The position numbers and the translations under genes were made by a program. From Thalassomonas sp. RHCl1 (GTDB lineage: Bacteria; Pseudomonadota; Gammaproteobacteria; Enterobacterales; Alteromonadaceae), in contig NZ_CANDNZ010000012.1 of assembly GCF_947387555.1 (NCBI RefSeq), positions 62,001 through 126,000 on the forward strand: a DNA stretch of 64,000 nucleotides. Reading direction: 5' to 3'. Positions 32,350 to 45,338 of this stretch are shown here, in pieces. A model generated the notes under the pieces. It was not told where the DNA came from, ran no database searches, and was given only the letters and a program-made list of their open reading frames with translations. Each line of letters starts with the position of its first letter. Positions within the stretch are counted from its first letter, which is position 1.

Positions 32350-34422
32350 ATGTTAAGCGATAAGTTAAAGCAAGCAATCAGACAAGCATATAAAGCCATA
32401 GGTGAAAACTTGCCTAACTTTAATCCCCGCAAACAGCAAACCTTTCTGATAGCGGAAATTGCCAAAACCCTGGCGGGCGACTATGACAAAGCCCGTAAAA
32501 TCATCACCATAGAAGCCGGTACCGGTACCGGAAAATCTCTGGCTTACAGCCTGGGCTCCATCCCAATTGGTTTATCGAGACAAAAGAAAGTCTGTATCTC
32601 CACCGCCACCGTCGCCCTGCAAGAGCAGCTGGTGGATAAAGATCTGCCTTTTTTAAAAAAACATTCCGGGTTAAATTTTAAGTTCACCCTGGTCAAAGGA
32701 CGCCAGCGTTATGTTTGCCGGCAAAAGCTCAGCCATGCGGTAACCACAGACGACCCCCAGGCGGGTTTTACCTTTGCCGAAAAACCCAAAGCCAGCGATA
32801 TCAAAACCCTGAACAAGATGTTCAAAGCCCTTAATGACGGCAGCTGGTCGGGCGATATCGACTCCTGGCCGGAAAGCGTACATCATAATATCTGGCAGCA
32901 GATCCAAAGCGATAAACACAGCTGCCTGCGCCACTTATCCGAGCACACTCATTGTCCGTTCCATAAAGCCCGCGACACCATGGATGAGTCGGATGTGCTG
33001 GTGATTAACCATAGCCTGCTGCTGGCCGATTTAGATCTGGGCGGCGGCGTGATCTTACCGTCACCGGAAGATACCTATTATATTATCGACGAAGCCCATC
33101 ACCTGCCCAAAGTCACCCGGGATTTTGCCAGCGCCAGCGTCACCGTTAAAGGGGCGATCGACTGGCTCGGCAAGCTCAGGGAAACCGGCGATAAAATTGC
33201 CAAACTGATCAAGTCACAACGGGCTATTGCCCCGTCAATCAGCCTGGCGGATGATTGCCAGGATTTGCTGGTAGAGCTGCAAAAAGTACACACTTTTATT
33301 GAGAATAACCAAAGCGTTTATTTTCATTCCGAAGGCGTCTACCGCTTTGAAAACGGCATCTTGCCAAAAACCCTGAAAACCTGGTCCGCTGATATCAGCG
33401 AACTCAGTAAAAAAGCCCTCGGCCATATCAACAAACTCTACGCCCAGCTGATGGAATCGGTCAAAGACGGCGATACCCAAATGTACCTGGCAGAGCCTTT
33501 GCTGGCTGAAGCGGGTTTTATGATCTCACGGTTGGAAAATTTCGCCGCCCTGTGGCAGATGTTTGATAAAACCGACAGTGAAAAAGGCGCCCCGCTCGCC
33601 CGCTGGATTGAAAAATTAGAAGGCAAACGCCAGGACTACCTGCTGTCCGCCTCGCCGATAGAGGTAGGTTTTACCTTGGAAGACAAGCTATGGAGTCAAT
33701 GTGAAGGAGCGGTATTATGCTCGGCTACTATCATGGCGCTCAATTCTTTTGATCATTTCCGTTTCCAGGCGGGACTTAAAACCAATGACGGCAGCCAATA
33801 CCAGCAGGTAAGCTCACCTTTTGACTATATCAACAAGGCCAGGTTAGTGATCCCGAAAATGCGCTATGAGCCCAGCGCCGATCAGTTCACCGATGAGGTG
33901 ATCACTAAATTACCCGCACTGCTAAAACAGGGTAACGCCTCCCTGGTGTTATTTTCTTCCTACTGGCAGATGGACAAAGTCGCCACGGCGCTGAGAGACA
34001 AACATAAGCTCGATATTCAGGTACAGGGAGAGCAGTCGCGCCAGCATATTATCGATTTGCATAAAAAGCGTTGCGATAAAGAGCAAACCAGCATTATTTT
34101 CGGCACCCAGAGCTTTTCCGAAGGGCTGGATTTACCCGGTAAATACCTCACCAATTTGATCATTACCAAACTGCCGTTTTCCGTACCCACTTCGCCGGTA
34201 GAAGAAGCACAGGCGGAATATATTACCGCCAAAGGCGGCAATCCCTTTATGTCGATTTCGGTGCCGGAAACCTCGAAAAAGCTGATCCAGGCCAGCGGCC
34301 GCCTGCTGCGCAATGAAAAAGACGAAGGCATTATCACCCTGATGGACCGGCGTGTGGTCAGCAAACGTTACGGCAAGCAGCTGCTCGACTCCCTGCCGCC
34401 GTTTAAACGCATCGTTGAATAA
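32350..34422 (+). CDS. dinG: ATP-dependent DNA helicase DinG
   Basis: 690 residues. An XPD-like superfamily 2 5'-3' helicase with an iron-sulfur domain that removes R-loops and helps damaged forks. Walker A is EAGTGTGKSLAYSL (about residues 55-68). The Fe-S cysteines are in RYVCRQKL and the CLRHLSEHTHCPFHKA segment. The DEAH box is YYIIDEAHHLPK, and motif VI contains QASGRLLRNEKDEG. Length is close to E. coli DinG (716). It is divergent from polB around a LexA-like box. It converges on the PEP-CTERM/subtilisin gene, with a terminator between. Confidence 0.95.
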   Translation: MLSDKLKQAIRQAYKAIGENLPNFNPRKQQTFLIAEIAKTLAGDYDKARKIITIEAGTGTGKSLAYSLGSIPIGLSRQKKVCISTATVALQEQLVDKDLPFLKKHSGLNFKFTLVKGRQRYVCRQKLSHAVTTDDPQAGFTFAEKPKASDIKTLNKMFKALNDGSWSGDIDSWPESVHHNIWQQIQSDKHSCLRHLSEHTHCPFHKARDTMDESDVLVINHSLLLADLDLGGGVILPSPEDTYYIIDEAHHLPKVTRDFASASVTVKGAIDWLGKLRETGDKIAKLIKSQRAIAPSISLADDCQDLLVELQKVHTFIENNQSVYFHSEGVYRFENGILPKTLKTWSADISELSKKALGHINKLYAQLMESVKDGDTQMYLAEPLLAEAGFMISRLENFAALWQMFDKTDSEKGAPLARWIEKLEGKRQDYLLSASPIEVGFTLEDKLWSQCEGAVLCSATIMALNSFDHFRFQAGLKTNDGSQYQQVSSPFDYINKARLVIPKMRYEPSADQFTDEVITKLPALLKQGNASLVLFSSYWQMDKVATALRDKHKLDIQVQGEQSRQHIIDLHKKRCDKEQTSIIFGTQSFSEGLDLPGKYLTNLIITKLPFSVPTSPVEEAQAEYITAKGGNPFMSISVPETSKKLIQASGRLLRNEKDEGIITLMDRRVVSKRYGKQLLDSLPPFKRIVE

Positions 34423-34483
34423 AAATGTCCTGGTCACGCCTGCTCATCCATGAGCCTGTGAGCTTCACCCTAAAGATAATAAA

Positions 34484-34506
34484 GGGGCGGAACTACGCTC
34501 CGCCCC
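34484..34506. terminator. Bidirectional terminator between dinG and the PEP-CTERM/protease gene
   Basis: GGGGCGGA and TCCGCCCC pair perfectly over 8 bp around a 7-nt loop. It lies 62 bp after dinG and 11 bp after the stop of the minus-strand gene. The U-tracts are weak on both sides. Confidence 0.6.
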
Positions 34507-34516
34507 TGCCATAAGG

Positions 34517-37500
34517 TTAGGATTTCACCACAGCGATCACGGTATTAAATATCGCTTCCCCGATACCACTACCGCTGGATGAGATCGGACAAACAATAGG
34601 CTGTCCCGCCGGTATTTCAATGGCAGCATCGCTATCGCAGTTAACCCCTTCTTCAGGCGCCAGAGTCTCTGTGCCCAGCACCACCTGGCGCAGATCGTTA
34701 ATCGCGCCGCTACCTGCGCCGATACCTATCACCTTAATATCTTTATCCTTCAAGGCAGTGATGGTTTCGGCAAAGGTGGGTCCTGGATAACCTATAATGG
34801 GCTCAAGATCCGAGTTCGAATCATTCTTGACATGAAAACTGGCATCGGTCCAAAGGATCATTATCCGGATCGGCTTCAAACTGTCCACCGGCGACTTACG
34901 GAAAGTAGCCCCTTTACCGGCAGCAATATTGGCACCGCCATGTCCGGCCACCGTCTGGCCTGCCCCCGTAGCTCCCTGGAACAGCGCCACCAGCTGGCTC
35001 TCTCGAAGATCATTGCCGCTGCGGATCGCCAAGGCATTGATAGCGTTAACAATGGGCTTGGCACCTGTGGCATCTTCAATACTTTGTATATCCAATACCC
35101 GGTTATAGGCCCGGTCTGTGGCCGCCCCCCACGGCGTGATCGGATAATCCTCAAATTGAGCCAAACCGATATGGATATTTAATCCGCTGTCATCAAGTTC
35201 ATCGACCAGAGAAGTCGCCTCAGCGCGAAAAGAAGCCAGGTCATCGCCGAAACTGCCGGAAGTATCAACCACCATAAAGACATCAACCGGCACCAGCAAA
35301 AATTTAATCGCCGCCCCCAGGTCCACTATCTTGCCGCTGATGGTGTTCACTCCTGCATTCTTGGTAGCCGTTGCCAGCAGAATTTTTCTTAACTGTTTCA
35401 GCTCCAGCGCACCATCGGTTGCCAGCATAAGCCCGAGCGAGCCCGCCGTTAACGGTGAAGAAAAAGAGGTGCCATTAACCCGCCGGTAATCTGCGGCATC
35501 GAGCGGGGCGGTAAAGTCCGTTGGTGCATAAACCGATACCCCGGGGGCCGCAATATCAACACCTGCCCCGGTATTGGTAAAGCTGGCCGCAGCTGCGGTG
35601 TCCGGATCGGCCGATGCATCCGTCGCCCCCACGGTCAAGACATTATCGGCATTGATGTTGGAAGGATAAGAGTCGGCAACCGCAAGTGAACTGTTACCGG
35701 CAGAGAGCACAAACATCACATCGGGATGCGCGTTAAACCGGCCGCGGTAAAAGTTTGTCAGTGCGGTGAAGGTGGCATCAGAGGCACCGAAACATTGCCG
35801 CTCGGTTTTTGCGCTGGCAACCGTCGCCTGTGCCTGTAGCGTTGCCACATGCACCAGCGTCTGCGCTTCATTGGCTGCGTTCACCCGCAACTTGATGCGT
35901 GTACCGCTTGAACGAAGCACAGCCCCGCCCACTAAGGTCGCCAGGGCAGCTGCCGTACCCGCAGGCGCTCCCGGATTAAGAAAGACAATCACAGTATCTA
36001 CCGGCAATGCGCTTTTACGTGAACCGCCAAAACTCATATTGATAACTTTGGCACCGGCGTTGACCATACGTGAAATCAGTGTCTGGTTCGCTATTAAAGT
36101 AGAGCCCAGTCGCCGGGTATCAAGTTTGTACGGCACACTTGAGCCGTCGGCCGAATTATCGGTGACTCCCCCGAGTATGCCGTTGGTTTGAAACGCACCG
36201 CCGCCACCGGCTTTATTACCGGCCCCTATGACCCCGGCAACGGCCGTACCATGATCTTTGCTACCGGTACTACACCCGGCCCGGGCCGCCCAGCCGGCAT
36301 CATTGCGGGTTGAACCGCCGGTAAATGCCACACCATCAAATTCACCATGCCGCTGAAAGCCCCGATCGAGCACCCCTACCACCACAGGCGAAAACTTATG
36401 TTTGGCATCGAATAAAAGATCCCAGGCATCAGAGGCCCTGATTTGCTCGTAAGCACTTTTATCTGCTGCCGGCAAGGCCTGTGCATCGTTGCCCGCGGCA
36501 GTAGGTTCAAGTACCGAGTCTGTGGTGTAATTGCGTATCGCCAGGACCACCCTGGGATCAATCAGCAAAGCATCAATAATGAGATCAAGTGCTTCTATGG
36601 TCAACGTGGGCACCCTCAGCTGATACAGGTTAGCGGTCGGTGCAAAACCTACCACTTCTCCCGACTGGCTTGCCGCCAGGCTTTCGGCTGTTGTTATATC
36701 CTCGCCGTCAATAAGGGACACCAGTACCTCGTCGACAGCAAACTCCGCCCCTTCACTGCTGACAAGTTTGTCATCCGGGGTCGGGCTGAAGAAAGGTTCA
36801 AGATCCGTGCGCACCAACACCAACTCAGACTGGGTTCGCCGCATGGTGCCACGGTAAGCAACAGAAACCCGGTATCTCAGTACACTCGGGCTTGACACCA
36901 ACACGTCAAGTTCAGTGGTGAAAACCAAATCCCCCGCAGTGCTGTCGCCGTTACTGCCGTCATCAAACATAGTGGCGGCAACCGCCAGCCTGCCGTCTTC
37001 CTGCACCTGCAACAAACGGACACTTGCCGGGATCAAATTATCATCCGGCGCGACCCTGGCCGCAAACCTGACCGTGGTTGGCGTATCAACAAACACCAAC
37101 GCCGGGGTGGCGACAACGGATTCAACCCGCTGCACGGCGTAAGACGGCGCTGTCGTTAACACAGCAAGGCCAAACGCCAGCATGAACTTTACCTTGTGGT
37201 ACCTGACCCGTTTAGCGCGCATCACAACGAGTATTAACAAGGCGATCAGGGTAATGAGCAATACCGATGGCTCAGGCACAGAGGTATCTAAGGGAGTAAA
37301 GTCAAACTGATCCAGGGTAAAAGATCCCCCAAAAGGATCGCCTTCAAAAATCACCCGAGAAATGCCCAAGGCAGAGCTTAGCGACAACAGTTCATTCGGT
37401 GAAGATCCGGCCTCACCGCTAAGTGCCATATTATTGAAAAAACTTGAGGTGTCGGTATCAAGCAGCGAATTGCTCAAATCAAACGCTGCCGCACTCAGCC

Positions 37501-37792
37501 CCACGCTATAGGTAAATAACCCCGAGACACTGAATACCGGCGTATCAAACAAAACCTCAATCAGGCCGAATTGGTCAAAGACGACATTATCTCCGGATAC
37601 AGGCGGAAACTCAAACTCGTTCAATGAGATGCCTGCGGTCAAAACCGTTGCTCCGGAAAAAGTAAGCCCGGGATACTGGGTCGTCACAGCTTCCAGATCA
37701 GAAAGGGTATCAAAGGTTATCGGTATCGCAGTTGCTAACGCGCTGGTCGTTAGCATTATCGCCGCGAATATGGCTCTAATGAGTCTAGTCAT
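34517..37792 (-). CDS. PEP-CTERM protein fused to subtilisin/von Willebrand A protein
   Basis: 1091 residues in one open frame, in two halves. Residues 1-203 are a complete PEP-CTERM exoprotein: a signal peptide (ending ALATA), a beta-rich choice-of-anchor-like body, and the sorting tail VPEPSVLLITLIALLILVV followed by MRAKRVR. Immediately after, residue 204 is Met and starts a second signal peptide (MLAFGLAVLTTAPSYA). The second half has a beta domain, a subtilisin S8 domain (Asp in VGVLDRGF about 475, His in KDHGTAVAG about 514, Ser in NGTSFSSP about 776) and a von Willebrand A domain with the MIDAS DTSGS (about 841). AAGG lies 9 bp before Met 204, so a separate product from 37183 is possible. 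A long structured leader precedes it. Confidence 0.88.
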   Translation of the reverse strand: MTRLIRAIFAAIMLTTSALATAIPITFDTLSDLEAVTTQYPGLTFSGATVLTAGISLNEFEFPPVSGDNVVFDQFGLIEVLFDTPVFSVSGLFTYSVGLSAAAFDLSNSLLDTDTSSFFNNMALSGEAGSSPNELLSLSSALGISRVIFEGDPFGGSFTLDQFDFTPLDTSVPEPSVLLITLIALLILVVMRAKRVRYHKVKFMLAFGLAVLTTAPSYAVQRVESVVATPALVFVDTPTTVRFAARVAPDDNLIPASVRLLQVQEDGRLAVAATMFDDGSNGDSTAGDLVFTTELDVLVSSPSVLRYRVSVAYRGTMRRTQSELVLVRTDLEPFFSPTPDDKLVSSEGAEFAVDEVLVSLIDGEDITTAESLAASQSGEVVGFAPTANLYQLRVPTLTIEALDLIIDALLIDPRVVLAIRNYTTDSVLEPTAAGNDAQALPAADKSAYEQIRASDAWDLLFDAKHKFSPVVVGVLDRGFQRHGEFDGVAFTGGSTRNDAGWAARAGCSTGSKDHGTAVAGVIGAGNKAGGGGAFQTNGILGGVTDNSADGSSVPYKLDTRRLGSTLIANQTLISRMVNAGAKVINMSFGGSRKSALPVDTVIVFLNPGAPAGTAAALATLVGGAVLRSSGTRIKLRVNAANEAQTLVHVATLQAQATVASAKTERQCFGASDATFTALTNFYRGRFNAHPDVMFVLSAGNSSLAVADSYPSNINADNVLTVGATDASADPDTAAAASFTNTGAGVDIAAPGVSVYAPTDFTAPLDAADYRRVNGTSFSSPLTAGSLGLMLATDGALELKQLRKILLATATKNAGVNTISGKIVDLGAAIKFLLVPVDVFMVVDTSGSFGDDLASFRAEATSLVDELDDSGLNIHIGLAQFEDYPITPWGAATDRAYNRVLDIQSIEDATGAKPIVNAINALAIRSGNDLRESQLVALFQGATGAGQTVAGHGGANIAAGKGATFRKSPVDSLKPIRIMILWTDASFHVKNDSNSDLEPIIGYPGPTFAETITALKDKDIKVIGIGAGSGAINDLRQVVLGTETLAPEEGVNCDSDAAIEIPAGQPIVCPISSSGSGIGEAIFNTVIAVVKS

Positions 37793-38648
37793 GGCAAAAC
37801 CTCCTTACATTATCAGTTTGCCGACATGTGCAGTTTTGTAGCGTGTTCTTTTGCGGCGGACAGCCCATATTCCCACCACTTTTGGTGGTTTTATTCCGCC
37901 AGAGCCCGAGAAAATTTCGTTAGTTTTTGCCGGTTCATGCACGTTAGCAACAAACGTAAATGAAACAGCGCGCTTCCTCCTTAGTGTTGTCAGATATGAG
38001 CTTAGATAGTGTAGACAAGTATCAGCGTGATGTACGTAAATCTTCGTACAAACTAAAATATGCGATTTGCCCTGCTCTTCGTCTCTGCCTCTTTTACCGC
38101 TCAATCAAGGCCCGGCTTAGAGCAAGAAAATTTCCGGCTTATTTCAGTGGATACTTATCTTTGTATGTAATCTCAAAGCTTGTTTGCATAACATCATGGC
38201 CGCTTGTTCCGGAAAATTGGCGATATAAATCCCCTTGCCTGAACAAGCCACCATGTCCCTCATTAAAAGTGCAACTTAGAGAGTAAATCACTCACCCGAA
38301 AGCGATTAAAATCTCAGGAAATTCAACACAGCAGAGCAAGCCACTGAATTTTCTTACTTTTATCTTTTGAAAATAGTTAACTTGGTCGGCAAACATTCAG
38401 TGCCGGCAATAAGCTATACAGCCAGTATTTAAGGACGGCATTAACTAAAATGCTATCAGGATAAAGATTGGGGCAACAACGCGATACCTTGATGCCAGAA
38501 GCTTGGAGAAGTCTTTGTTTTTATGGTAGGTTACCTAATTGAAGAGTTATTACTTTAATTGATTTTGTTTTATTTCAGCCTTCACTTTAACCATAAAGCA
38601 CACTGAATTAACAAGATTTGCGACCCGATACAGATCCAGGATAAATAA
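37793..38648. other. Long divergent intergenic region between protease and DUF6701 genes
   Basis: 856 bp with no convincing gene on either strand. It should hold promoters for the PEP-CTERM/protease gene (minus) and the first DUF6701 gene (plus). The structured segment at 37855-37900 is the only ordered element I see; the remainder is AT-rich and unordered. Confidence 0.6.
37855..37900 (-). promoter_or_regulatory. Structured leader of the PEP-CTERM/protease mRNA
   Basis: On the minus strand, outer arms GGCGGA/TCCGCC (6 bp) enclose an inner hairpin with 5-bp stem ACCAC/GTGGT and a 5-nt loop. The structure ends about 63 nt before the start codon at 37792, whose RBS is AAGGAGG. No known riboswitch class fits what I can see. 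It could be a leader hairpin or attenuator. Confidence 0.4.
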
Positions 38649-41354
38649 ATGTCTTCCCGTTTGTTACTTTTTTTTATTCTTTTCCTCATGCCCTTATCTG
38701 GCGCAATGGCTACCGAGTGTTCCGCTGTCTTCACATCTGATGAATCATTTTCTGTAAACGGCGCTTCAACCATTAACAACACTAATGTCTGTAATAACGG
38801 CAGTTGTGACACCCCCAGCAGTTTTAGCACAACACCACCACCTTCCCTGTCTGGCCGCCCCAATAATTTTAACGCTACCGAGATAAGTAGTGGAGCGACT
38901 AAATATAATAACTGGACCCTGCCCGCTAATGGTGAAATCACCTTTAACGGCTCAGGCACGGCCGTACTTTATTTTGTCGGGGGGCTGAGCATACCCGAAG
39001 GCACTCAACTGAATGTCGGCGGGGATCCGGCCAATGTATTAATTGTTGTTTCAGGAAGTTTAACTATCGCGCAAAATACGCAAATAAACGGCAACATCTA
39101 TGTGTCGGGCAGCGCTTCGTTACATAATAACATCACCTATAACGGAGGGCTTGCGGTTGGCGGCGCTTTGTCGGTAAGCGATAACGGTAACTACAACTTT
39201 TCTCCCGCCTATGTCAATAATATAGATGCCGCAGACTTTTGCGAACAAACCGTCACTCAGGTGCACCATTATGAAATCATCCATAACGACCGGGGTTTGA
39301 CCTGTAAGACAGAAGAAATCACCATCAGGGCCTGTGACGTTAGCGATTGTACAACCCTTAGCAATCAGAATGTCAGCTTAGATTTTCTTGTTGATAATGT
39401 GGTCACCCCCGTCAGCTTTTTAGGCAGCACTACGGTTAATTTACAACACCTAACCCCGGGTACGGTAACCTTGTCGCTGGACAATACCATACCGGGAACT
39501 GCTAATGACCTGCTCTGCTCTGCAGCCGACTGTCAAGTCACCTTTGCTGATGCCGGTTTTGTTTTTTCCGCCATAAACAACCAGGTGGCGGGCGTGCCTT
39601 TTTCGGATATCACCCTGCAAGCCGTACGGGCCGGTGATGACGGTAACGGCGGCGTATCCTGTGATCCCAACCTGGATTTTAATGATGCGACCATAGACAT
39701 AGATCTTGCACAGGAAAATATCACCCCTTCAGGGACTTCAGGACTGGAATTCTTTATCGGGGACGATGACACAGCCTTGCAAAAATACCCCGGTTCCAGA
39801 GCGGTATCGCTGAAATTTCTCAACAGTTATGCCACACTCAGCAAGCCCAATTACCTCGATGCCGGCGAAATACAATTACGTGCCAGTTTTGACACTGCTA
39901 CCGGCGGAAATATCACCGGCATCAGCAACCGTTTCTGGGTCAGCCCGAGTATGCTCAAACTCAGCGCACAGGCCAATGACACAGATATAGATGCCACTGC
40001 TGTCACAGCCAGCCCTACCCATAAAGCCGGAAACGCCTTTGATCTTAAAGTTACTGCGGTCAATGCCTCAGGCGATAACACAGAGAACTACTCCCCCGGT
40101 CAACTACAGCTCAAACTGACCAGAACCGCTCCCAGCAGCGGTAGCAACGAAGGCAACTTAACCTATGCAGAGGGGGAGCAGATCACATCCGCACTGACCG
40201 CCAGTTTTAAAGACGTCACTTTAAGCAGTTTTATCTCCGGCAGCTCAAGTTATGATCAGGCCAGTTACTCCGAGGTCGGACTTATTAATCTGGATGTGCA
40301 GGACAGCAACTATGGCAACAGTAATATAACGGTGCCCGCCGACGCCATAGCCATAGGCCGCTTTATTCCCGATCATTTCACCCTGGTGGATAACCCTGCA
40401 GAAATCTCGGGTTGGTGCGGCAGCACCAGCACCAAATTCACCTATATGGACCAAGCCCAACTGCATGTGGATTATGCACTTGAAGCACGCAATAAAGCCG
40501 GGGAAATAACAAAAAACTATTTCGACCATGCCGATCCCGATCAAGATTATGCCAGAGCCAGTGTAACCCTGGTGGCAGAAAATAATAACAGCGGTGACGG
40601 TGAAAGTTTCCCTGCCAGGATCTCGGCTTTTAGCGGCAGCTGGATTGAAGGCAGCTATCAACCGGCAAATACCACAGCTGCTTTTCCAAGAATCAGCACA
40701 CCTGCCGCCGCGGTCGACGGGCCTTTTGAATTGCTGCAATTAGGCTTAACCCTGACAGATGAAGACGGACCTGTATTGGCCGAGCCTTTCGATATGCTGG
40801 CAACAGAAGCAGGCCCATGCACCCGGGATGAAGACCCGATAACCGACTGTAATGCTATCCAACTCTCCGGTAGCGCTAAACTGCTTTATGGCCGCTGGTA
40901 TATCGAAAATAACTTTGGCCCGGAAACCACCAACCTGCCTATGGTGATGTCGCTGCAATACTGGAACGGCAGCAGCTTCGTCACTAATCTTGATGACAGC
41001 TGTACCACCTACAACGGCGAAACCGTCAATAATTATGCCTTTGACAACAGCAACCTTAATCCGGCCCTGGCGGATGATCCCGGCATAGCAGCCACCACAG
41101 GCACAGGCACTTTCATTAACGGCAGCAACAGCCATAGCCCGTTGATGCTGACCGCCCCCGGCGCCGGCAATGTCGGCCACACCTATTATATCTACGGCGG
41201 CAGCAATAATATCACCCCTGACTGGTTAAAATATGACTGGGACAACGAGGACGGAGATTTTGACGGCCCCTATGACGATAATCCCAAAGGCCTGGCCAGT
41301 TTCGGCCAGTATCACGGTAATGACCGTATTCTCTACTGGCGCGAGGTAGATTAA
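38649..41354 (+). CDS. DUF6701 (MshQ-like) surface protein 1
   Basis: 901 residues. A signal peptide (residues 1-22, ending AMA-TE) is followed by a glycine-rich beta-helix resembling polymer-forming proteins (about 90-190: GTAVLYFVGGLSIPEGTQ and NGNIYVSGSASL). Next is an Ig-like Cys-containing module (from about 205, HYEIIHNDRGLTC), then the DUF6701 region ending in the family's C-terminal signature WLKYDW...ASFGQYHGNDRILYWRE. DUF6701 is the conserved end of MshQ, encoded in many MSHA pilus operons, but no other Msh gene is here. It is a paralogue of the next gene, with the same order. RBS CAGGATAAATA. An exported cell-surface or adhesion role is inferred. Confidence 0.87.
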   Translation: MSSRLLLFFILFLMPLSGAMATECSAVFTSDESFSVNGASTINNTNVCNNGSCDTPSSFSTTPPPSLSGRPNNFNATEISSGATKYNNWTLPANGEITFNGSGTAVLYFVGGLSIPEGTQLNVGGDPANVLIVVSGSLTIAQNTQINGNIYVSGSASLHNNITYNGGLAVGGALSVSDNGNYNFSPAYVNNIDAADFCEQTVTQVHHYEIIHNDRGLTCKTEEITIRACDVSDCTTLSNQNVSLDFLVDNVVTPVSFLGSTTVNLQHLTPGTVTLSLDNTIPGTANDLLCSAADCQVTFADAGFVFSAINNQVAGVPFSDITLQAVRAGDDGNGGVSCDPNLDFNDATIDIDLAQENITPSGTSGLEFFIGDDDTALQKYPGSRAVSLKFLNSYATLSKPNYLDAGEIQLRASFDTATGGNITGISNRFWVSPSMLKLSAQANDTDIDATAVTASPTHKAGNAFDLKVTAVNASGDNTENYSPGQLQLKLTRTAPSSGSNEGNLTYAEGEQITSALTASFKDVTLSSFISGSSSYDQASYSEVGLINLDVQDSNYGNSNITVPADAIAIGRFIPDHFTLVDNPAEISGWCGSTSTKFTYMDQAQLHVDYALEARNKAGEITKNYFDHADPDQDYARASVTLVAENNNSGDGESFPARISAFSGSWIEGSYQPANTTAAFPRISTPAAAVDGPFELLQLGLTLTDEDGPVLAEPFDMLATEAGPCTRDEDPITDCNAIQLSGSAKLLYGRWYIENNFGPETTNLPMVMSLQYWNGSSFVTNLDDSCTTYNGETVNNYAFDNSNLNPALADDPGIAATTGTGTFINGSNSHSPLMLTAPGAGNVGHTYYIYGGSNNITPDWLKYDWDNEDGDFDGPYDDNPKGLASFGQYHGNDRILYWREVD

Positions 41355-41567: not shown

Positions 41568-44500
41568 ATGTCATTTCGCCTGTTACTCTTTTTTATTCTT
41601 TGTTTATTTCCCGTGTTTATTACCCAGGCTACCGACTGCACCGATGTATTCCCGGGTCCGCAAAGCTTCGCGGTAAAGGGCAGTCTGAGTACGGAAACCG
41701 GTGTCACCTGTAACGGTAGTAGCTGCAGCGCCGCCAGCTTTACCGAAGTAACTTTAAAAAGCATCAGTAACGGCGGCGACTTTAATGGCAGTACCATATC
41801 AGACGGGGTTACCGATTATAACGGCTGGGGCCTGGGGGACAATTCCACCGTCACCTATAACGGCACCGCTAACGGCACGGCGGTGCTCTATTTTAAAGAT
41901 AACGATGTTGTGCTAAAAAAAGGGGTAAAAATCAATCAGGGAGGCGATCCCGCCAATGTCTTACTGGTGTTCAAGGGCAAATTAAAAATAGAGGAAAATG
42001 CCAGGATCAATGCTTTTATTTATGTCAAAGGCAATGAACTGACCATAGAAAAAGACTCAGAGATAGATGGCGGCATAGCAGCCAAAAAAGATGTCATTCT
42101 CAAAGAGAACAGTAGCTTTACCTATACGCCATCGGATTTGAATAGTCTCGACTCCCAGGGCTTTTGTGATCAGGCAGCAGTGACCATAGATCATTATCAA
42201 ATCACTCACGACGGCAGCGGCTCCGTCTGCGAAGCTGAAACGGTTACCATTAAGGCCTGTCTCGACGGCGGCTGCTCAAGTTTAAGCACAGATGCCGTCA
42301 CCTTAGACTTTCAGGCAAACAGCATAACCAAAACGACAACAACCTTTACCGGCAGCACCAGCTTTACGTTCGACCATACCACGGCAGAAGTCCTGACGCT
42401 CTCGGTGGCCAACCCGAGCATCACCCCGACCAATGCACTTGAATGCGACAGCGGTGGCGGCAACAGTTGCGATATCAGTTTTTCTTCAACCGGCTGCAGC
42501 AACGTCTGCGCGGCCTATTTCCCCAACACGGTACAGGGACATGATGTCGGCAGTTTATTAAAATTTAAAAACAATGGCCAAGTATTGGGGGATGCCGATA
42601 ACCTGTTCGCCTTTCCCTCTCTGACCGATGAAACCGATGCCAGCCACGATACCTGCGGCAGCACAGATTGCACTATTTCCAGCACAACCGCCCCGGCCCT
42701 GACCCTGCCGGCATTTGAAACCACCTCAACCACCACAGATATAGCTTTGTCCGCCGGCACCTCCACCATAGGCCCGGGTGGCGATTACGATATGACTGAA
42801 ATTGATCAGCTCAGTTTAACCAGTAATGCCAATGTCACTTTTTTGTCTTCGCCAACCGACTATAAAATTACCACCGGTTTGTTTCACAACAATTCCGTTA
42901 TTACCCTCAATGCCGGCACATATTGGTTCGACTTTCTCGAAATATTCAATTCCAGCCAGGTGATAGTCAATGGTCCGGTGATTATTTATGTCAACCAACA
43001 TTTCGACATCGAAAACAACAGCCTGGTGAATGTCAACGGCGTTGCCCGAAACCTGGTATTTATCGGTTATGAACAAATCCACTTAAAAGGAGATGCACAG
43101 GTAAAGGCGGTGCTCTATGGCGCCGGTCAGGATGTGCACATTCAAAATAACGCCGTCCATACCGGGGCGATATCGGCAAACGGCACCCTGGAAATTAAAA
43201 ACTCGGCATCCGTCAACCATGAAGGTATTGCCGGTTTGACCCTTGACGGACTCTGTGAAACTGTTGCAGATATTCACCATTATCAAATTATCCATAATAA
43301 CCAGGGATTAACCTGCGCCGATGAAGAGGTCACCATTAATGCCTGTGAAGTGGCCGACTGCTCGGTGTTAAGTACACAGAACGTCACTATGGATGTCTAC
43401 GTCGGCACCAAGAAAATCGCCGACACCCTCACCTTCCAGGGCACCAGCACCTTTGACTTTACCTATGCCATTGCCGAAACCGTCTCTTTTTCACTGGATA
43501 ATGTCAGTCCCACTGCCACAGATGATATCGAATGTTCTTATGCCAACTGTGAAATCACCTTCACCGATGCCGAATTCTCGTTTTCCGAAATAACCAACCA
43601 GGTAGCAGGGGTAGAATTTACCGATATTATTCTCACCGCCACTAAGTCTAAACGTGCCGGCGCCGGATTTTTCTGCATCAGCGACGATACCTTTGTCAGT
43701 AAAACCGTGACCATAGACTTAGCCCAGGAAAATATCGCGCCAACAGGCACCAGCGGCTTGTTATTTACTTTAGATGAAGATGCCACCAGCCTGGCTAAAT
43801 ACCCAGGTTTTACCGCGGTAGATTTGGTATTTGATGCCGATGCTCAAGCCATAATTCCCAAACCTAACTATAAAGATGCCGGGCAAATACGTCTGCAAGC
43901 CAGTTATAGCAACGGCGGCACCGATATTACCGGCGCCAGCAACAGCTTCTGGGTCAGACCCGATGCCCTCAAGTTAAACGCACAGGCCGATGGCAGCAAC
44001 CTGGATGCCACCACAGTTGACGCAAGCCCCGTACACCAGGCCGGCGCCGATTTTGATTTTGACGTCACCGCCGTCAATGCCGACGGCAACACAACCCAAA
44101 ACTATACCCCCGGGCAAATACAATTAATGTTGCAAAGAACCGGCCCCACCTCAGGCAGCAATGAAGGTAATTTTACCTATGCCGCCAGTAATAGTCTGCC
44201 AAGCTCCCTGACACCGGCCTTTGTCGATGTCACCTTAAGTAGTTTTTCTGCCGGCAACTCCAGCTTTAGCAGTGCCAAGTATTCAGATGTCGGTTTACTT
44301 AACCTGGATATACAGGACAACGCCTATGGCGACGGCAGCCTGACGGTACCTGGCGCCGCCCTGGATATCGGCCGATTTGTCCCCGATCATTTTACCCTCT
44401 TCAGCTCCCAGGTTTCAGGCTGGTGCGGCGCAGGCGATCCGGATAACTTCGTGTATATGGACCAGAGTGAACTGGAAATCAGCTATCAGCTGCAGGCCTT

Positions 44501-45338
44501 AAACCAGGCGGGAGAAGTCACCAAAAACTACTTTGACCATGTAGATAATGCTCAAGATTATGCCAAAGCCGGTATCAGCCTGGCGTTGGAGAACAATAAC
44601 GACGGCGAGGATTTATCATCACGTTTATCCGGTTTTTCCAGTAACTGGGTTGAAGGGGTTTATACCCTGGAAGACGTCAAAGGCAATTTTAGCCGTGCTG
44701 CTGTCGATCCCGATGGCCCGTTTGAAGTTCTGCTATTTGGCATCAGTGTGGATGACGGCGAGACGCCAACGCCGGTCTCTTTGCTTACCGGCCTGGATAT
44801 GCGCGTCGATACCAATGATACTTGTACCACTGACACAAACCCGGCCACCGATTGCAACGCCAAACAACTCAGCGGCAGCGCAAACATACGCTTTGGCCGC
44901 TGGTTTGTTGAAAATAACTTTGGTCCGGAAACCTCAGATCTGCCGATGGTGATGTCGGTGCAATACTGGAATGGCACAGGTTTTATCACCAATGAAGATG
45001 ACAGCTGCACAGCTTATAACGGAGAAACCCTTAATAACTATGCCTTTGATACTACAGGCTTGAACCCGGCTCTGGCCACAAGTCCGGGCATATCCTCAGG
45101 CAGCGGAACTTTCATTAACGGCAGCAACAGCATCACCCCCTTGATGCTCACCGCCCCCGGCGCAGAGAATGTCGGTAATACCTATTATATCTACGGCGGC
45201 GGCAATGATGTTACCCCGGATTGGTTGAAATATGACTGGGACAGCGACACCAATCATGATAACAATCCCCAAGGCCTGGCCAGCTTTGGCCAGTACCGCG
45301 GAAACGACCGTATTCTTTACTGGCGTGAGATTAATTAA
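41568..45338 (+). CDS. DUF6701 (MshQ-like) surface protein 2, with internal duplication
   Basis: 1256 residues, a longer paralogue of the gene before it. A signal peptide (about residues 1-20, ending TQA-TD) leads into a polymer-forming-like beta-helix (about 85-200). Then an Ig-like module (from about 207, HYQITHDGSGSVC), a second beta-helix region (about 390-560, TYWFDFLEIFNSSQVIVNG and NVNGVARNLVFIGY), a second Ig-like module (from about 567, HYQIIHNNQGLTC), and the DUF6701 end with ASFGQYRGNDRILYWRE. So helix plus Ig have been duplicated relative to paralogue 1. Strong RBS AAGGAAGGAAAGA. It converges on the beta-lactamase gene 33 bp downstream. Confidence 0.87.
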   Translation: MSFRLLLFFILCLFPVFITQATDCTDVFPGPQSFAVKGSLSTETGVTCNGSSCSAASFTEVTLKSISNGGDFNGSTISDGVTDYNGWGLGDNSTVTYNGTANGTAVLYFKDNDVVLKKGVKINQGGDPANVLLVFKGKLKIEENARINAFIYVKGNELTIEKDSEIDGGIAAKKDVILKENSSFTYTPSDLNSLDSQGFCDQAAVTIDHYQITHDGSGSVCEAETVTIKACLDGGCSSLSTDAVTLDFQANSITKTTTTFTGSTSFTFDHTTAEVLTLSVANPSITPTNALECDSGGGNSCDISFSSTGCSNVCAAYFPNTVQGHDVGSLLKFKNNGQVLGDADNLFAFPSLTDETDASHDTCGSTDCTISSTTAPALTLPAFETTSTTTDIALSAGTSTIGPGGDYDMTEIDQLSLTSNANVTFLSSPTDYKITTGLFHNNSVITLNAGTYWFDFLEIFNSSQVIVNGPVIIYVNQHFDIENNSLVNVNGVARNLVFIGYEQIHLKGDAQVKAVLYGAGQDVHIQNNAVHTGAISANGTLEIKNSASVNHEGIAGLTLDGLCETVADIHHYQIIHNNQGLTCADEEVTINACEVADCSVLSTQNVTMDVYVGTKKIADTLTFQGTSTFDFTYAIAETVSFSLDNVSPTATDDIECSYANCEITFTDAEFSFSEITNQVAGVEFTDIILTATKSKRAGAGFFCISDDTFVSKTVTIDLAQENIAPTGTSGLLFTLDEDATSLAKYPGFTAVDLVFDADAQAIIPKPNYKDAGQIRLQASYSNGGTDITGASNSFWVRPDALKLNAQADGSNLDATTVDASPVHQAGADFDFDVTAVNADGNTTQNYTPGQIQLMLQRTGPTSGSNEGNFTYAASNSLPSSLTPAFVDVTLSSFSAGNSSFSSAKYSDVGLLNLDIQDNAYGDGSLTVPGAALDIGRFVPDHFTLFSSQVSGWCGAGDPDNFVYMDQSELEISYQLQALNQAGEVTKNYFDHVDNAQDYAKAGISLALENNNDGEDLSSRLSGFSSNWVEGVYTLEDVKGNFSRAAVDPDGPFEVLLFGISVDDGETPTPVSLLTGLDMRVDTNDTCTTDTNPATDCNAKQLSGSANIRFGRWFVENNFGPETSDLPMVMSVQYWNGTGFITNEDDSCTAYNGETLNNYAFDTTGLNPALATSPGISSGSGTFINGSNSITPLMLTAPGAENVGNTYYIYGGGNDVTPDWLKYDWDSDTNHDNNPQGLASFGQYRGNDRILYWREIN

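Follow-up and report, generated by a model that had tools for sequence, protein, structure and literature searches.

A PEP-CTERM tag and a second signal peptide inside one open reading frame of Thalassomonas: a gene fusion and a putative membrane-hairpin polyprotein

What does a PEP-CTERM sorting tag do when it lies in the middle of a protein, directly ahead of a second signal peptide? This question is raised by a gene of Thalassomonas sp. RHCl1, examined here within a stretch of 64,000 nucleotides (contig NZ_CANDNZ010000012.1, positions 62,001 to 126,000; hereafter the window). Positions 34517-37792 of the window hold, on the minus strand, one open reading frame (ORF) of 1091 codons with an ATG start and a single stop at its end. 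An earlier inspection of the DNA letters without database searches (hereafter the sequence-only reading) had noticed the internal tag and the second signal peptide, and had offered a fusion of two genes, a polyprotein cut by exosortase and signal peptidase, or in-frame overlapping genes as explanations. The arrangement itself was confirmed in the current study, with the frame free of stops in all four species of the genus compared. The fusion of two genes is strongly supported, as 17 of 19 close pairs of the two halves outside the genus are separate genes while all four genus species carry them fused. The best explanation, to which a probability of about 0.6 is assigned, is that the gene encodes an operon-derived polyprotein that would form a membrane hairpin and be cut by signal peptidase I and possibly by an exosortase, judging from its sequence features.

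The fused frame and its conservation in the genus

The start codon is preceded by TAAGGAGGTTTTGCC, a strong Shine-Dalgarno sequence whose AAGGAGG (37800..37806, minus strand, as are all features of this gene) is identical in the four species, with a duplex energy of -12.8 kcal/mol in each. A first signal peptide, judged by eye to occupy approximately residues 1-22 (37727..37792), is followed by an exported domain, part A (residues 23-171; 37280..37726), the pentapeptide VPEPS (residues 172-176; 37265..37279), a glycine-free hydrophobic helix (residues 177-191; 37220..37264), and a basic loop (residues 192-203; 37184..37219) with a net charge of +4 to +6 in the four species. A second segment resembling a signal peptide then runs from Met204, whose codon lies at 37183, to residue 219 (37136..37183) and terminates in SYA|V. 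Alignment of the genus orthologues shows that VPEPS, R192, K194, M204 and the SYA|V site are invariant; the latter includes the small residues S217 (-3) and A219 (-1) that the sequence rule for signal peptidase sites calls for, and P216, Y218 and V220 are likewise invariant. Residues 160-172, ahead of the helix, carry a net charge of -2 to -3 in the four species, and the loop behind it is positive.

Part B begins with a domain (residues 220-330; 36803..37135) that is labelled choice-of-anchor-X-like because it misses the NF041940 cut-off (23.2 versus 25 bits), yet is related to such domains through a profile of the B-type domain (profile A3). Next come a subtilase propeptide-like segment (residues 339-400; 36593..36778; PF22148 17.2 bits, under the cut-off of 21) and a subtilase (peptidase S8) domain (residues 470-817; 35342..36385; Pfam 95.8 versus 21.8 bits), in which D476, H514, N700 and S776 are present in all four species, the Asp, His and Ser being catalytic. 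A VWA domain match (residues 837-910; 35063..35284; Pfam 25.0 versus 23.8 bits) has the MIDAS motif DTSGS in all four species.

The three other species (orthologous loci L002, L003 and L004) have the same 1091-codon frame, ungapped, at 85-89% identity, with dinG on the 3' side of the fused gene in all four, and the check for a stop between the halves, as had been proposed, found none in these genomes of the genus. Of these three further genomes, two were assembled in 2 contigs and one in 1 contig. A sequencing or assembly artefact, or a fresh loss of a stop in one assembly, is therefore excluded for the genus, and its chance at this locus is negligible; nothing in its favour was found within the genus, and the joined cases outside it are single contigs of metagenome-assembled genomes (MAGs).

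Among relatives, 15 of 59 genomes, the genome of the window included, gave any match at E <= 0.001, and outside the genus these matches were short, lying in the subtilase part and once in the VWA part. When part A (residues 25-203) was searched for by itself, it was matched in 1 of 394 genomes from the order, which was the window's own genome, where part A occurs once. Part B has one full-length match in each genome of the genus, in addition to three short, weak ones spread over two genomes. Of 2000 composition shuffles, 51 contained, by a simple rule, a helix followed by a basic residue and a signal-like segment. Chance therefore does not make the bare pattern a great rarity; it is accepted as real because it is kept in all four species and because its halves are homologous to separate genes elsewhere. 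Additionally, the ratio of nonsynonymous to synonymous variation (pN/pS) is 0.13 in the A domain, 0.16 in the S8 domain and 0.37 in loop 192-203, and from the last value the junction seems to be translated and under loose constraint.

Part A was modelled by AlphaFold2 together with 7 relatives, with a mean predicted local distance difference test score (pLDDT) of 78. The best Foldseek matches in the PDB were the gingipain Kgp adhesin domain 3km5 (E 6.7e-5), CBM29 and CBM6, all with modest TM-scores of 0.4-0.5 and large root-mean-square deviations. We are moderately sure from these models that part A is a carbohydrate-binding-like jelly roll.

Separate genes outside the genus

Relatives outside the genus were sought with profile A2, built from 10 rows of part A, and with profile A3. 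A scan of genome contigs reduced 65 candidates to 8 loci, all but one of them from Acidobacteriota MAGs. Counting centre genomes and those already known, A2 matched at least 4 of 396 genomes from the phylum to which locus L060 belongs and at least 20 of 257 from the order of L060, at least 2 of 274 genomes of the window's class, and at least 1 of 250 and at least 1 of 12 genomes in two further orders (the centre genome only). Because so few genomes matched per search, the A family is regarded as rare and scattered. No relative was found in scans of viral contigs, and a plasmid search returned 2 records, both partial and distant.

Twenty-two loci outside the genus reach 80 bits with A2 (L057-L064, L096, L097, L099-L109 and L117), and 19 of them have an A3 domain within about 0.4 kb or in frame. 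The other three comprise L058, where it lies 3.3 kb away, L097, where none was found, and L108, where the contig ends; for the weaker A2 matches (L098 and L110-L114), no B neighbour was found within the stretches examined. Of the 19 close pairs, 17 are separate genes, L060 is cleanly joined, and L064 is joined only from the tag onward. With the start codons judged likeliest, the genes overlap by ATGA or GTGA in L059, L062, L099 and L106, while in L057, L104 and L105 gene A is followed by one stop and one codon and then by an ATG in the same frame, a layout in which the loss of a single stop would give the fused arrangement. The remaining spacings run from -17 to +394. Gene A of L106, L107 and L109 ends in another kind of C-terminus, which lacks the tag, and the PEP motif is altered in gene A of L063 and L101. 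Subtilase was found only in L117 among the 8 outside B genes run against Pfam (L057, L060, L063, L102-L105 and L117). As a side observation, the cargo of B varies widely (in L057, L063, L103, L104, L105 and L117 it includes Glucodextran_B, other Ig-like repeats, PKD domains and subtilase), and the choice-of-anchor-X-like head is the constant part of these partners.

Judged by content, L117, from another family of the window's class, is the best split counterpart. Its gene A is 42% identical to part A over nearly the whole length, a value exceeded by some A genes from Acidobacteriota (up to 54% identity). This A gene ends in SIPEPATTLLFAIGAIVIGVMRRFRTHSSSR followed by a stop, and gene B starts 65 bases on (ATG at 1279), preceded by TTAAGGAGAACATC, whose AAGGAGA is a good ribosome-binding site. 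The L117 B protein has a signal peptide ending in SYA, as the second signal peptide of the fused protein does, and then two stretches of anchor-X type; behind these lie a propeptide-like domain and, at 177 bits, a subtilase.

The halves are not always divided by a stop, being fused in the genus and joined in L060. In this Bryobacterales MAG, a stretch without N encodes in succession part A, VPEPT, a helix, PKK, MKRSLII... and an anchor-X-type domain, with the joint inside one 544-codon stop-to-stop frame. In L064, an acidobacterial MAG contig, frame 1 contains the body of A up to a masked stretch. From there on, frame 2 encodes a tag, a signal-like segment and a short piece of anchor-X type, followed by another partial A, another tag-like segment and an anchor-X domain that runs off the contig. 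Two joints of tag and signal peptide thus stand in a row in one frame at L064:4136-5065, with partial domains and a frame change before them, and this locus is possibly a decaying gene or a misassembly.

These observations lead to the following proposal. The ancestor would have been a two-gene operon, with gene A encoding a jelly-roll protein that is exported and bears a PEP-CTERM tail, and gene B a secreted choice-of-anchor-X-like or subtilase protein (here with VWA). In the genus no stop divides them any longer, and their frames are observed to be joined; the split state is probably the older one because of its spread, a judgement drawn from distribution rather than from a tree. One chain would be translated from the strong start of A, a step for which there is support. 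The first signal peptide would then export part A, the tag helix would stop transfer and leave the basic loop in the cytoplasm, and the second signal peptide would re-enter the membrane and export part B, giving a hairpin. A cut by signal peptidase I after SYA219 would free the protease proenzyme from part A, which would retain the helix and, as a tail, the former signal peptide; a later cut by exosortase near VPEPS may then carry part A outward. The polyprotein reading agrees with the conserved topology signals and with the exosortase encoded in the genome; both cuts are inferred, as are the direction of fusion, the topology, the equal amounts and the joint function.

The tag, the internal start and the competing explanations

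The internal place of the PEP-CTERM motif is exceptional. Its 24 residues are followed by 896 others, so it lacks the extreme C-terminal location of such tags, and all 30 high-scoring tails of the genus stop 0-9 residues past the motif, with at most 14 residues in 17 lower-scoring ones. Among the PEP-CTERM matches listed for the window's own genome (E <= 0.00114), which do not include the window's own, no open frame exceeds 382 aa. This genome (7.6 Mb) has 72 PEP-CTERM matches at E <= 1, some of which may be chance, since 7 of the 14 control genomes also gave matches in that search. Its exosortase match is a single one, which answers the suggestion that an exosortase be looked for and scores 150.8 bits with TIGR02602 against a cut-off of 105.55. 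TIGR02602 exceeds this cut-off in 13 of 13 searched genomes carrying A (four of the genus and nine others), in line with the proposed polyprotein, and gave one match, under the cut-off, in 14 control genomes.

The tag helix is also unusually hydrophobic for the genus, as its core has a Kyte-Doolittle mean of 3.06-3.19 in the four species, compared to 1.55-2.16, with at least two glycines each, in the thirty high-scoring tails and 1.28-2.61 in 17 of the 20 lower-scoring tails from the window's own genome. By the best 13-residue window, none of 48 genus tails reaches any of the four fused-gene helices. The control comprised 30 high-scoring loci, with orthologues counted apart, and 20 lower-scoring stretches; L139 and L149 gave no tail by the pattern, leaving 48 of 50 for the best-13 measure, and the core mean dropped three. 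Hydropathy and membrane-insertion scales were used for these measurements. A firm helix fits the hairpin model, because an internal tag must halt the chain so that the second signal peptide starts from the cytoplasm, and a terminal tag, unlike an internal one, may need only a marginal helix. Outside the genus helix hydrophobicity is weaker evidence: the core mean of L060 (2.25) falls inside, and that of L064 (2.51) just above, the range of the first-picked 12 unfused A genes (1.50-2.43).

Several findings weigh against the proposed polyprotein. The window protein scores just under the curated PEP-CTERM cut-offs (TIGR02595 15.7 versus 16; PF07589 16.3 versus 20.7); its three orthologues pass the TIGR02595 cut-off, at 16.5, 18.6 and 21.1. 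Its glycine-free helix is unlike the other tags of the genus, and exosortase could have ceased to use the tag. Firm or glycine-free helices also occur in unfused genes, as the A tail of L100 has a core mean of 2.94 and a best-13 value of 3.45 (exceeding L003, L004, L060 and L064 but lower than the window and L002), and L101 and L102 have glycine-free tails among 16 unfused A genes with a tag-like tail. In a rough neutral star-tree simulation of four lineages the probability of meeting no stop was 0.010 for codons 176-219 and 0.20 for codons 192-203, the latter being the neutral probability of the stop-free 12-codon linker. In addition, the junction is the fastest-evolving part at the protein level, the full-length AlphaFold2 prediction is uninformative (pLDDT 33), L060 and L064 are single MAG contigs in which an artefact is possible, and the evidence from the genus comprises four related genomes that probably go back to one fusion event.

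These findings bear differently on the competing explanations. It is a serious possibility, somewhat short of even odds and compatible with the best explanation, that signal peptidase cuts and exosortase does not, the PEP-CTERM remnant having turned into a plain stop-transfer anchor. The glycine-free helix, which exceeds all 48 measured genus tails in hydrophobicity, and the window's score below the TIGR02595 cut-off would fit such a tag; however, VPEPS is invariant beside a variable helix, the cut-off is passed in three of the four species, and an exosortase is present in all four. The opposite extension, in which a mid-chain exosortase signal is active, exosortase and signal peptidase I cut both ends of the hairpin to give equal numbers of a carbohydrate-binding surface protein and a protease, and the joint arose repeatedly (in the genus, in the Bryobacterales MAG and perhaps in another acidobacterial MAG), is offered tentatively and is rather doubtful. 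An uncut hairpin, in which one chain would stay in the inner membrane with both exported domains outside as a two-headed anchored protease, is unlikely, given that the SYA|V motif and P216 are invariant behind a variable segment and that L117 keeps SYA at its signal peptide, although the tag helix is strongly hydrophobic, the subtilase could free itself via propeptide processing, and the B proteins of L059 and L060 (Acidobacteriota) begin, by eye, with a seemingly uncleaved anchor.

In-frame overlapping genes, with B also or mainly started at Met204 (37183), were the third suggestion of the sequence-only reading and are very improbable. Met204 is invariant, the AAGG noted upstream of it is present in the window, separated from the ATG by 8 bases, and synonymous variation (pS) is somewhat low in codons 172-191 (0.34, with an ORF median of 0.47). 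However, this AAGG occurs in only two of the four species, pairing with the anti-Shine-Dalgarno at Met204 is -3.9, -3.9, -2.9 and -0.4 kcal/mol in the four species, values that 33, 35, 54 and 81% of the ORF's in-frame codons also reach, and pS is high in codons 192-203 (0.61) and near the median in 184-203 (0.50). Because pS around Met204 is not unusually low, no clear hidden site appears to be kept there. An internal start as the main route was rejected, since predicted ribosome binding is ordinary and non-conserved and synonymous sites are not unusually constrained. The split counterpart L117 has a real site at this place, plain in the sequence, with a pairing of -9.2 kcal/mol scored one base off the ATG of its B gene. 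The test is non-discriminating in the mostly acidobacterial pairs, as values run from +0.1 to -12.1 kcal/mol at separate B genes (15 of 16 pairs, L100 left out) and are -0.7 and -1.5 kcal/mol at the joined genes of L060 and L064.

The surroundings of the gene show further features. The 37 bases directly 5' of the fused start (37793-37829) are identical in all four species, with the DNA further upstream diverging, and are possibly a regulatory element; no Rfam match was found within 34000-38650 of the window. Two tandem large proteins, each with DUF6701 (346.9 and 335.5 bits), adjoin the fused gene on the plus strand (38649-41354 and 41568-45338). The start of the first also lies beside the fused gene in L002, and no match to it was found in the flanks examined of L003 and L004.

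Comparison with known systems

Among the matches listed in a search of open-access literature, by titles and the starts of abstracts, no bacterial polyprotein with an internal signal peptide and no study of an internal PEP-CTERM signal were found. In Haft et al. 2006 (PMC1569441), 87% of PEP-CTERM proteins have fewer than 10 residues past the signal, and the very few non-terminal or long-tailed matches are suspected to be possibly non-functional because matches in atypical places vary more, a view that would count against a working tag here. The present case differs in that VPEPS is constant and the adjoining helix is the variable part, and in that a non-terminal match has been kept through four genomes of the genus with a clear two-gene counterpart elsewhere. 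The protein shares with the PEP-CTERM/exosortase (EpsH) system a PEP motif at the outer membrane face, a helix, a basic cluster, an N-terminal signal peptide and an exosortase in the genome, but 896 residues follow its signal, starting with a second signal peptide.

The two-gene pairs of a PEP-CTERM protein and a choice-of-anchor-X-like protein (for example L057, L059 and L117) have homologous halves in the same order, with a stop or an overlap between the genes where the fused gene has one frame. The fused gene provides a natural single-chain substrate in which cuts by exosortase and by signal peptidase could be told apart by terminal peptides, and it suggests joint work of the surface protein that bears the tag and its partner, a subtilase or another choice-of-anchor-X-like protein.

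The cytochrome b/c1 precursor FbcH of Bradyrhizobium is a bacterial polyprotein cut by signal peptidase, and resembles the fused protein in being one chain with an internal signal peptide and a signal peptidase cut, which is predicted here; it differs in having no sorting tag at the joint and in that its parts are respiratory subunits. In LtaS of Staphylococcus aureus, SpsB cuts between Ala217 and Ser218, which provides a precedent for a signal peptidase cut after an internal membrane segment, though in one multi-pass enzyme rather than in two fused secreted proteins (PMC11898559). At the core-E1 junction of hepatitis C virus, the internal signal peptide that closes one protein also directs export of the following one, and signal peptidase cuts there; this case is viral, takes place at the eukaryotic endoplasmic reticulum and is unrelated to the fused protein (PMC5402940).

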